A stretch of DNA of 64,000 bases from Nitrospirota bacterium (lineage in GTDB: Bacteria; Nitrospirota; Thermodesulfovibrionia; Thermodesulfovibrionales; JdFR-88). Below the pieces are notes generated by a model. The model had not been told where the DNA came from, did not search any database, and saw only the letters and a program-made list of their open reading frames with translations. The position numbers and the translations under genes were made by a program. This document shows positions 8,271 to 55,866 of this stretch, one piece after another (position 1 is the first letter of the stretch; every line of letters begins with the position of its first letter). The stretch is from contig JACWAF010000038.1 in assembly GCA_014874185.1 (NCBI GenBank), positions 1-64,000 of the forward strand, in the 5' to 3' direction.

Positions 8271-9445
8271 ACGCCCTTTTAGTGCTCCAGGACGGCATGG
8301 TGTTCGAGGGGAAATCCTTCGGGGCGGAAGGCGAGGCCGTGGGCGAGGTGGTCTTCAATACCTCCATGACCGGCTACCAGGAGATACTTACGGACCCCTC
8401 ATACAAGGGGCAGATAGTCACGATGACTTACAGCCAGATAGGCAATTACGGCATGAACCCGGAAGACCAGGAGTCCCGCGCCGTGTGGCCGGAGGGTTTT
8501 ATCGTAAAAGAGTACATGCCGTACGCAAGCAACTGGCGCTCGCGGATGCCCCTGGGCCAATACCTCAAAGAGCGGAAGGTGGTGGCCATCCACGGCCTGG
8601 ACACGAGGGCGCTCACAAGGCATCTAAGGGAATCCGGCGCACAGCCGGGGATAATCTCGACCAAAAATTTGGACCCTGAGGACCTCCTTGAGAAATTGAA
8701 AAAACACCCCGGCATAGGGGCGTTCGACCTGGTAAAGGACGTGACCTCGAAAGAGCCATTCTCCTGGAGGCAGACCGTCTGGCACTGGCCGGAGGGAATG
8801 ACCCCCTCACCCATGATTAGCCCCTCACCCCTGTCCCCTCTCCCTCAGGGAGAGGGTGAGGGGCTAAGGAAGGTTAAAAGGGTTGTCGTGTACGACTTCG
8901 GCGTGAAACTCAACATCCTCCGCAACCTGGCAAGCGCGGGGTTCGATGTGACCGTGGTGCCAGCGGCAACCCCGGCTGAAAAAGTGCTTGAGATGGACCC
9001 GGATGGGGTTGTGCTCTCTAATGGCCCCGGAGACCCCGGGACCGTCACCTATGCCATAGAGAACGCCAAAAAGCTGATGGGCAAAAAGCCCATATTCGGC
9101 ATCTGCCTGGGCCACCAGATACTTGGGCTTGCCATGGGCGGCAGGACCTATAAATTGAAGTTCGGCCACCACGGCGGAAACCACCCGGTGATGGACCTTG
9201 CCACCGGACGGGTGGAGATAACCAGCCAGAACCATAACTACTGCGTGGACGTGCAGGGACTGAAGGGCAAGGCGGTGCTCACGCACAAGAACCTCTACGA
9301 CGGCACCGAGGAGGGGATGAGGCACGCGGAGCTTCCGGTCATCTCCGTGCAGCACCACCCGGAGGCCGGGCCCGGCCCCAATGACGCCTCCCACATATTC
9401 ACCAGGTTCAAAGGGATGCTGGCCGATAAAGATGAAAAAAGATGA
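8264..9445 (+). CDS. carA: Carbamoyl-phosphate synthase small subunit
   Basis: 393 residues from the ATG at 8264, chosen because AAGGGGAGG lies at 8247-8255 and homology begins there ([20 protein letters not shown]). It hydrolyses glutamine to feed ammonia to CarB. The N-terminal CarA domain ends near residue 175. The class I glutaminase follows, with the nucleophile in [10 protein letters not shown] and the His/Glu in [11 protein letters not shown]. Residues about 179-200, in the linker between domains, are encoded by an inserted palindromic repeat ([15 protein letters not shown]). The reading frame stays open, so function is probably kept. It overlaps the pyrC stop. Confidence 0.96.
8818..8866. 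repeat. Palindromic 'CCCCTCACCC' repeat inserted in frame in carA
   Basis: TAGCCCCTCACC (8818-8829) and GGTGAGGGGCTA (8855-8866) form outer arms, with CCCTCTCCCT/AGGGAGAGGG inside. This is the class of palindrome usually found between genes; here it codes for Pro/Ser/Gly-rich linker residues between the two CarA domains. An incomplete second copy of the motif (CCCCCTCACCCATG) just precedes it. Confidence 0.85.
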
Positions 9446-14854: not shown

Positions 14855-14996
14855 CTTCTTTCTCTTGTAAGCGATATTATTCAAATCATCCGCCTTGGGG
14901 CAAAGAGAATTTTTAGATTTTTTGCCCCGAACGGGGCAAAAAAATACAAGAGTTCTTTCTTTTGCTACTTTTCTTTCCTGCAAGAAAGAAAAGTAG
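14855..14996 (+). repeat. Three-hairpin dispersed element, copy A (left hairpin degenerate)
   Basis: Contains half of the left hairpin (CTTCTTTCTCTTGTAAG, 14855-14871) and the conserved CAAAGAGAA box. The central hairpin TTTTTTGCCCC-GAAC-GGGGCAAAAAA is at about 14918-14943, followed by the CTTTTG box and the right hairpin CTACTTTTCTTTC...GAAAGAAAAGTAG (14965-14996). Same order and orientation as copy B, but the central palindrome differs. It lies between rnj and the methyltransferase. Confidence 0.85.
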
Positions 14997-20798: not shown

Positions 20799-20924
20799 TA
20801 CTTTCTCTTGTAAGAGAAAGTAGGCAAAGAGAACTTTTAGCTTTTTTGAGCTTGCTTTGCAAGCTCAAAAAAGAGTAAAAATTTTTCTTTTGCTACTTTT
20901 CTTTTTGCAAAAAAAGAAAAGTAG
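20799..20924 (+). repeat. Three-hairpin dispersed element, copy B (most complete)
   Basis: Left hairpin TACTTTCTCTTGTAAGAGAAAGTA (20799-20822) in one palindrome; box GGCAAAGAGAACTTTTAG; central hairpin with perfect 14-bp arms TTTTTTGAGCTTGC (20842-20855) and GCAAGCTCAAAAAA (20859-20872); box TTTTTCTTTTG; right hairpin with outer arms CTACTTTTCTTTTT and AAAAAGAAAAGTAG (20893-20924). It lies between folE and folD, ending 29 bases before the folD ribosome binding site, so it may also act as a terminator. Confidence 0.9.
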
Positions 20925-21901: not shown

Positions 21902-22038
21902 GTAATCCCCCTCCATCCCCCTTTGGAAAAGGGGGATTTAAAGCATGCCCCGGCAGGTCTTAAGCCGGGGTCCCCTCCTTGGGAGGGGTGCAGGGGTGGG
22001 TTTTCCCTCTTTTCTAAAGAGGGGTTAGGGGAGATTAC
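21902..22038. repeat. Nested 'GTAATCCCCCT' palindromic repeat between folD and metV
   Basis: Outer arms GTAATCCCCCT and AGGGGAGATTAC enclose further palindromes (CCCCCTTTGG...AAAAGGGGG, GCCCCGGC...GCCGGGG, CCCCTCC-TTGG-GAGGGG, CCCTCTTTT...AAAGAGGG). A longer copy with the same ends lies at 25811-26041. Confidence 0.85.
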
Positions 22039-23662: not shown

Positions 23663-23731
23663 TTACTTTCTCTTTAAAAAGAGAAAGTAACCAAAGAGAA
23701 ATTTTTATAGGGGAGCGCGAAGCGCTCCCCT
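23663..23731 (+). repeat. Three-hairpin dispersed element, copy C (right hairpin missing)
   Basis: Left hairpin TTACTTTCTCTTTAAAAAGAGAAAGTAA (23663-23690) as one palindrome, box CAAAGAGAA, then a central hairpin AGGGGAGCGC-GAA-GCGCTCCCCT (23709-23731). The CTACTTTTC right hairpin is absent. It lies between the convergent metF and glgB genes. Confidence 0.8.
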
Positions 23732-25810: not shown

Positions 25811-26041
25811 GTAATCCCCCTCCATCCCCCTTTAGAAAAGGGGGATTTTAAAGCATGCCCCGGCAGGTCCCCGTATCAAGTATGGGGCAGGCTTAAGCCG
25901 GGGCCCCCTCCTTGGAGGGGTGCAGTTATAAAAAAAGTACCGGCGAGAAGATCATTGCCGGGGATTTTAAAGTCCCCTCCTTGGAGGGGTGCAGGGGTGG
26001 GTTGTCCCCCTCTTTTTTAAAGAGGGGTTAGGGGAGATTAC
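25811..26041. repeat. Expanded copy of the GTAATCCCCCT nested palindromic repeat
   Basis: Same ends as the 21902-22038 copy (GTAATCCCCCT ... AGGGGAGATTAC) but longer. The CCCCTCCTTGGAGGGGTGCAG unit occurs twice, separated by a segment of about 65 bases. It fills most of the glgB-treS gap (25711-26085), where no ORF or promoter was recognised. Confidence 0.8.
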
Positions 26042-53505: not shown

Positions 53506-53628
53506 CTACTTTTCTTTTTTGCAAAAAAGAAAAGTAGCAAAAGAAAAAATTCTTATATTTTTTCCGTTCCAAGGAGCGGAAAAAATCTAAAAGTTCTCTT
53601 TGCTTCTTTCTCTTACAAGAGAAAGAAG
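53506..53628 (-). repeat. Three-hairpin dispersed element, copy D (reverse orientation)
   Basis: Reads on the minus strand in the same order as copy B. Left hairpin CTTCTTTCTCTT...AAGAGAAAGAAG (53628-53603), boxes GCAAAGAGAACTTTTAGA and TTTTTTCTTTTGCTACTTTT, central arms TTTTTTCCGCTCC and GGAACGGAAAAAA (one G-T pair; 53585-53558), right hairpin CTACTTTTCTTTTTTG...AAAGAAAAGTAG (53537-53506). It lies between the divergent dppB and ubiD genes. Confidence 0.88.
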
Positions 53629-55791: not shown

Positions 55792-55866
55792 AAAATCTCC
55801 CCTGCCCCTCTTTTCCAAAGAGGGGCAATTCCTCCCTTTGGTAAAGGGAGGTTAGGAGGGATTTTC
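55792..55866. repeat. Nested palindrome of the CCCC/GGGG class
   Basis: AAAATCTCCC ... GGGATTTT outer arms with CCCCTCTTTT-CC-AAAGAGGGG and CCTCCCTTTG-GT-AAAGGGAGG hairpins inside. Related in style to the elements at 21.9 and 25.8 kb, shorter. Confidence 0.75.

Follow-up and report, generated by a model that had tools for sequence, protein, structure and literature searches.

What kind of element occupies positions 20799-20924 of this Nitrospirota contig, and what keeps its central hairpin folding while the sequence of that hairpin changes? A sequence-only reading of the 64,000-nucleotide stretch analysed here (the window) had recognised four copies with shared hairpins and boxes, and had considered for them a bidirectional terminator, a target of a REP-like transposase, a structured RNA family, or a template that is copied and varied. 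The answer developed below centres on the boxes, which are indeed present as described and whose mirror relation to the hairpin arms had gone unremarked.

Anatomy, copy number and genomic context

In a full element of ~125 bp, a purine box follows the left hairpin and a pyrimidine box precedes the right one, with a central hairpin between the two boxes. The two halves of the element are inverted copies of one type of unit, which on the pyrimidine strand reads 5'-(mirror of Y arm)-G-CTW-C-(Y arm)-loop-(R arm)-3', with CTA, CTT, GTT or other spacers between the box with its G and the C of the unit. All four window copies lie between genes, as had been stated, and copies B and D (20799-20924 and, on the minus strand, 53506-53628) have exactly the make-up first described (Table 1). 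The other two deviate from it. In copy A (14855-14996), the supposedly shared left hairpin is reduced to its 5' arm plus a few bases, with CGATATTATTCAAATCATCCGCCTTGGGG, a piece of a different repeat module, in place of the rest. Copy C (23663-23731) amounts to half an element, with left hairpin, box and central hairpin, and lacks the T6/A6 clamp thought to be kept throughout. Folding of copy B as DNA (z = -8.0) and of copy D as RNA (z = -6.3) was reached by no shuffle. Among further copies, a second module (ATACGGCGGATTTCATCCGCCTTGGGG) takes the place of the 3' arm or foot in some outer hairpins (L021, L025, L032, L033, L035, L040 and window positions 14872-14900), and in L023, L030, L034 and L037 the foot of the left hairpin carries an inserted short hairpin, CCCACGGACCGTGGGACAG or near variants of it.

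Table 1. Components of the four window copies
Copy	Feature	Positions	Strand
B	Left hairpin (pyrimidine arm, 4-nt loop, purine arm)	20799..20822	+
B	Left third-strand box CAAAGAGAA, mirrors left purine arm	20825..20833	+
B	Variable central hairpin, T6...A6 clamp, arms GAGCTTGC/GCAAGCTC	20841..20873	+
B	Right third-strand box TTTTTCTTTTG, mirrors right pyrimidine arm	20882..20892	+
B	Right hairpin CTACTTTTCTTTTT...AAAAAGAAAAGTAG	20893..20924	+
D	Left hairpin	53603..53628	-
D	Left third-strand box CAAAGAGAA	53594..53602	-
D	Central hairpin, cores CCGCTCC/GGAACGG (one mismatch)	53557..53586	-
D	Right third-strand box TTTTTTCTTTTG	53538..53549	-
D	Right hairpin	53506..53537	-
A	Left-hairpin remnant: 5' arm and loop	14855..14871	+
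A	Replacing fragment, ends in ATCCGCCTTGGGG (second repeat module)	14872..14900	+
A	Left box CAAAGAGAA	14901..14909	+
A	Central hairpin, core GCCCC with T6/A6	14918..14943	+
A	Right box TTCTTTCTTTTG, mirrors right arm with two C	14953..14964	+
A	Right hairpin CTACTTTTCTTTCCT...AAGAAAGAAAAGTAG	14965..14996	+
C (half element)	Left hairpin	23663..23690	+
C (half element)	Left box CAAAGAGAA	23692..23700	+
C (half element)	Central hairpin GGGGAGCGCGAAGCGCTCCCC, without T6/A6 clamp	23710..23730	+

BLAST with one copy returned 65 matches in the element's own 2.43 Mb genome, and a covariance model built from 28 full-length copies gave 146 matches over both strands, equivalent to about 85-90 distinct places; the genome-wide search suggested by the sequence-only reading thus turned up further copies with covarying central stems. 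For the own genome, 508 kb of stretches around copies were read. A strict parser yielded 29 two-unit elements, of which 24 have a central stem of at least 8 perfect base pairs (mean of 0.3 with shuffled spacers; mean of 7.5 and maximum of 12 with swapped spacer halves), built on 16 distinct cores, which bears out the claim that pairing is kept while the sequence changes. The outer hairpins covary as well, with 13 pairs changed on both sides in the RNAalifold consensus, and both observations support the proposed selection on structure.

Genes predicted with a simple ORF caller leave 86 of the 91 own-genome places in intergenic DNA, and the median distance to the adjoining stop codon is 16.5 nt. 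Convergent gaps outnumber divergent ones 26 to 10 (background gaps, 50 vs 57), the divergent cases being ten of 82 places. Between co-directional genes the two orientations are equally frequent (23 vs 23); no significant strand bias of units was found in other taxa, and single units in Negativicutes lie 14 times in sense and 11 times in antisense. The lack of strand preference, together with the intergenic position, favours a DNA-level or bidirectional element. A classical structured RNA family finds no support in the even orientation or in the outcome of an Rfam 15 search, in which no window match rose above the gathering score and 15 related loci gave only a tRNA.

Coordinated change of arm and box

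One arm of every outer hairpin is homopyrimidine, and its sequence reappears in exact mirror image in the box next to it. On the right side, the arm/box pairs are TTTTCTTTTTT/TTTTTTCTTTT, TTCTCTTTTTT/TTTTTTCTCTT, TTTCTCTTTTTT/TTTTTTCTCTTT, TTTCTCTCTTTTTT/TTTTTTCTCTCTTT, TTTTCTTTCTT/TTCTTTCTTTT and TTCCCTTTTTT/TTTTTTCCCTT; on the left, they are TTTCTCTT/TTCTCTTT, TTTTTCTT/TTCTTTTT and TTTCTTTT/TTTTCTTT. Counted from the junction, C positions are identical in arm and mirrored box for 48 of 54 right units (shuffled mean 19.3, maximum 30) and 61 of 67 left units (shuffled mean 27.3, maximum 39), and, with the box left unconstrained, 98 of 136 own-genome junction-G hairpins are perfect mirrors of the whole Y arm (shuffled mean 19.1, maximum 32), shuffle values that overstate significance because the copies are related, the independent co-changes being nearer 15 than 100. 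The figure of roughly 15 comes from counting arm types: the own genome has about six on the right and four on the left, an Oscillospiraceae genome (G049) some five and a Clostridia genome (G048) three, all matched by the box. Perfect direct copies of the arm occupy the box in 3 of the same 136 hairpins. Exact 8-nt triplex units number 118 in the analysed DNA and 0 in block shuffles; the third-strand matches are exact over 8-14 nt, with spacers of 3-5 nt plus the junction G and loops of mostly 2-4 nt.

Mutual information points the same way, reaching 1.45 bits between left arm and left box and 1.77 bits between right arm and right box, each value attained in 0 of 2000 shuffles, which themselves give 0.1-0.4 bits. 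Between left and right boxes it amounts to 0.30 bits, attained in 645 of 2000 shuffles and thus at chance level; since the two boxes do not covary, the co-changes do not reflect Watson-Crick pairing between them. A Watson-Crick outer stem joining left and right boxes does appear in RNAalifold and minimum-energy folds, and we reject it as a conserved pairing because it is carried by non-covarying G-U pairs.

A pyrimidine strand that is complementary, in parallel, to the purine strand of a hairpin has the geometry of a pyrimidine-motif triple helix of T.A:T and C+.G:C triplets, the opposite DNA strand of which corresponds to an antiparallel purine motif (PMC4666352). Such a parallel third strand has to mirror the pyrimidine arm, hence our triplex-hairpin reading: arm and box are shown to change together in mirror image, as would be expected of a Hoogsteen third strand running parallel in the major groove of the hairpin. 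If the box serves as third strand, about 8 triplets would be expected per left unit and 10-14 per right unit. Explanation by a template that is copied and varied fails for the box, because template switching and gene conversion give direct or inverted copies and not mirror ones. The co-changes show that the element maintains its hairpins, its third strands and its central stem alike. Judged from these patterns, the element is an inverted pair of putative intrastrand-triplex hairpins around a variable hairpin, in a REPIN-like layout, and its co-changes constitute strong sequence evidence for what would be triple helices maintained in bacteria. A related E. coli motif forms a stable triplex in vitro, and footprinting in vivo was not supportive of a stable triplex (Holder et al. 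2015, PMC4666352).

Whether DNA triple helices play a role in bacterial cells has long been asked; the motifs are over-represented. Covariation of a hairpin with a mirror third strand, seen in several lineages, is the type of evidence that established RNA secondary structures; it brings the triplex question within reach of experiments on short oligonucleotides and on simple three-way mutants, and it supplies a search rule for such elements, namely a mirror box, a G and a CTWC hairpin. Other triplex-like hairpins in the window (8820-8870, 21905-21940, 25815-25850 and 55795-55850) are G/C-rich, for example TCTCCCC-TG-CCCCTCTTT..AAAGAGGGG and CCCCCTCCATCCCCCTTT..AAAGGGGG, and apparently belong to separate dispersed families of the same genome.

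Occurrence in other genomes and relation to known repeats

Scanning for CTTTTGCTACTTTTCTTT N2-12 AAAGAAAAGTAG located more than 111 stretches in several phyla, in Selenomonadaceae, Quinella, Taibaiella, Mucilaginibacter, Desulfobacteraceae, Nitrospirae and Nitrospinaceae MAGs, Clostridia and Ruminococcaceae. Degenerate-pattern counts per genome rise to 234 in an Oscillospiraceae MAG and lie at 72-85 in four others; reversed patterns, used as controls, give almost none. The mirror rule holds for 56 of 75 units in G049 (shuffled maximum 29), 34 of 60 in G048 (22) and 28 of 29 in the Clostridiales genome G052 (22), and an inverted doublet around a different central hairpin recurs in G049 (L265, L269) and in a Nitrospirae MAG (L147). 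Within the element's own order, several copies occur only in its own genome and one other among 150, and a narrower pattern run against 296 genomes of the phylum matches only the own genome and one single site. Such a scattered occurrence among phyla suggests that the unit spread horizontally or arose repeatedly. BLAST matches in relatives (L045-L048) appear to be chance matches within coding DNA and were set aside, and a phage collection held no convincing match to the element. In G052, units are also arranged in tandem, repeating at intervals of about 225 nt (L260 and other stretches).

Selenomonadaceae units carry an additional pairing, in which the loop is complementary to GC-rich bases immediately 5' of the third strand. 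The resulting stems are varied (GCCCC/GGGGC, CGTCC/GGACG, GTGTCC/GGACAC, GCGCAC/GTGCGC), and loop pairing of at least 4 bp is found in 30 of 50 Negativicutes (Selenomonadaceae) units (shuffled mean 14.2, maximum 22). Among Desulfobacterota it is present in 8 of 8, a value that shuffles also reach, and the sets from Desulfobacteraceae and Bacteroidetes are too small or too homogeneous for the comparison. Window units have loops of 2-4 nt without loop pairing, so that the covarying loop pairing 5' of the third strand that marks an H-type pseudoknot is confined to the variant units. The strands of an H-type pseudoknot come in the order 5' strand of stem 1, pyrimidine loop lying in the stem 2 groove, stem 2 itself, and a loop that pairs to complete stem 1. 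The variant units of Selenomonadaceae, Desulfobacteraceae, Bacteroidetes and Paraburkholderia have this strand order in common with pseudoknots that contain a major-groove triple helix, such as those of telomerase RNA and SAM-V (PMC6061858), from which they differ in being high-copy, strand-neutral genomic repeats.

The megaplasmids of Paraburkholderia caribensis each contain some 40 or more matches of the form GCCGC-TTTCTTTTG-CCTA-CTTTTCTTT-GCGGC-GGC-AAAGAAAAGTAGG, which are the inverted ends of a palindromic element of roughly 570 bp (for example, L298:9431-10000 on plasmid NZ_CP013104). P. phymatum and Caballeronia share the flanking sequence and have an intergenic gap too short for the 570-bp element, a comparison that shows its gain or loss between species and not how this came about. 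At Selenomonadaceae/Quinella loci (L122-L199), two hairpins with GGATG-type loops precede single units. With a relaxed Rfam threshold, the Selenomonadaceae element L166 gave weak matches, the plausible one being TwoAYGGAY (RF01731) at 23.8 bits, below the cut-off of 43.

Both intrastrand triplex repeats (PMC4666352) and REPIN-like doublets (PMC3116915) are known. The TMECO/PIT repeats and ITxF classes I-IV of Holder et al. (2015, PMC4666352) resemble our units in combining a hairpin with a same-strand third segment that follows a loop of ~3 nt, in being intergenic, on both strands, repeated in the genome and sometimes arranged as inverted pairs, and in that a purine-motif fold of one strand implies a pyrimidine-motif fold of the other. 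The units conform to the ITxF motif, with consecutive Y, R and triplex-register third-strand segments, stems of 6-15 nt and loops of 1-6 nt. However, TMECO is G/C-rich with one near-fixed sequence, whereas the present unit is A/T-rich, comes in many classes with covarying third strands and, in intact copies, is nearly always part of an inverted doublet around a variable hairpin; a term search of that text found covariation not to be reported. With the REPINs of Bertels and Rainey (2011, PMC3116915), the element shares the inverted doublet, a spacer that folds through compensatory changes, and its intergenic, dispersed occurrence; it differs in having triplex-type units and neither a linked RAYT nor an unpaired GTAG tag. 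The GTAG- and CGTC-tagged repeats of Di Nocera et al. (2013, PMC3733652) are likewise short palindromes near gene 3' ends, with dimers common, and the CGTC class also has no known transposase, yet their tag is unpaired whereas CTAC/GTAG closes the stem here, and a term search finds that the text never mentions triplexes. Open-access full text contained no paper on the sequence of the unit, with two chance matches to primer-like strings, and we found in it no description of an A/T-rich family, of third-strand covariation or of the pseudoknot variant.

A model of spread and its alternatives

We consider it probable that these copies represent a strand-neutral, intergenic, dispersed DNA repeat whose inverted triplex-type units would let it spread as a non-autonomous mobile sequence of the ssDNA type; of the readings weighed here, such a mobile repeat is the most likely, its way of spreading being proposed as follows. 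The folded form would arise in single-stranded DNA, at a replication fork or in an extruded cruciform, and its paired triplex ends would be recognised by an enzyme acting on ssDNA. Recognition would lead to the element being copied or moved, and the spacer could drift through compensatory changes because folding would be the sole demand on it. The presence of few copies in relatives and many in unrelated taxa is how a mobile sequence would look, and the findings point to an enzyme or process that spreads the elements. Nevertheless, no mobilising gene, transposase or other, was found linked to the element, no same-species empty site or transposition event was observed, and the placement near stop codons with some excess of convergent gaps, which counts against mobility, is also expected of a 3'-end function. 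Target-site duplication and flank complementarity were likewise not found (flank direct repeats 0.45 vs 0.35 shuffled), and the element therefore lacks the combination of terminal inverted repeats and target-site duplication typical of DDE-type MITEs. More tentatively, and with the balance tilting slightly against it, there may be a widespread class of bacterial mobile repeats that is recognised as a three-stranded fold (a triplex hairpin or, elsewhere, a telomerase-RNA-like H-type pseudoknot with triple helix), usually as an inverted pair, and that spreads between phyla without RAYT. If this is true, covariation would for the first time show DNA triple helices to be under selection in a class of genomic elements.

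The chief rival, which we regard as unlikely, is an RNA-level element at mRNA 3' ends, whose last unit, a pyrimidine-box triple-helix hairpin, would block 3' exonucleases or mark the mRNA ends of both neighbours. The distances to stop codons and the convergent excess would suit it, as would the inverted layout, which by its sequence places a Y.R:Y-competent unit at the 3' end of either strand, and the majority of REPs are generally located downstream of genes (PMC3733652). Against such a role stand the strand neutrality even of single units, the copies between divergent genes, the sporadic occurrence, with most relatives devoid of the element, and the lack of a U-tract. The proximity to 3' ends and the very stable hairpins could also indicate a bidirectional intrinsic terminator, as had been suggested, an explanation to which we assign next to no probability: an intrinsic terminator has a GC-rich stem followed by a U-tract, and the central hairpin cannot act as one because T6 precedes and A6 follows it on either strand. 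Terminator-like sites in the region number 10 (10.7 expected), and the element is found between divergent genes as well.

An ordinary REPIN, that is, a REP doublet moved by RAYT (an IS200/IS605-like tyrosine transposase) with an incidental mirror box, seems to us decidedly improbable. The layout anticipated for a REP-like transposase target is there, as an inverted palindrome doublet around a covarying, folding spacer, intergenic, strand-neutral and without target-site duplication, and compensatory changes occur in REPIN spacers too (PMC3116915). However, GTAG pairs with CTAC within the stem instead of forming an unpaired 5' tag, and is often missing from left units, many of which have GAAG or GAAC. 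The linked transposase that was to be looked for did not emerge either: neither of the two Y1_Tnp genes of the own genome is flanked by the element, no RAYT gene with the same repeat on its flanks was seen, and no Y1_Tnp was detected in G046 or G047, which hold 80-85 units each. RAYT is therefore not the general answer as mobiliser. The last alternative admits three Watson-Crick hairpins only and takes the mirror match for a by-product of low-complexity purine/pyrimidine sequence or of arm-to-arm copying. Simple T/C-run arms do make partial direct matches easy, and the copies are related by descent, but C positions agree class by class from the junction, mirror matches exceed direct ones 98 to 3, copying by template switching never yields a mirror, the boxes that would have to pair do not covary, and the mirror rule is seen independently in several lineages. 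This alternative is already disfavoured, and we hold it very improbable.

The two Y1_Tnp genes of the own genome are set in repeats of other kinds. The RAYT-like gene on contig C21 (L043:1180-1830) has its own flanking repeats, GTCACCCG..CGGGTGAC, unrelated to the element, and the second gene, on contig C30 (L042:1400-2140), lies between inverted flanks, GGGGACACCATA/TATGGTGTCCCC, and adjoins a reverse-transcriptase-like open frame at the contig end.
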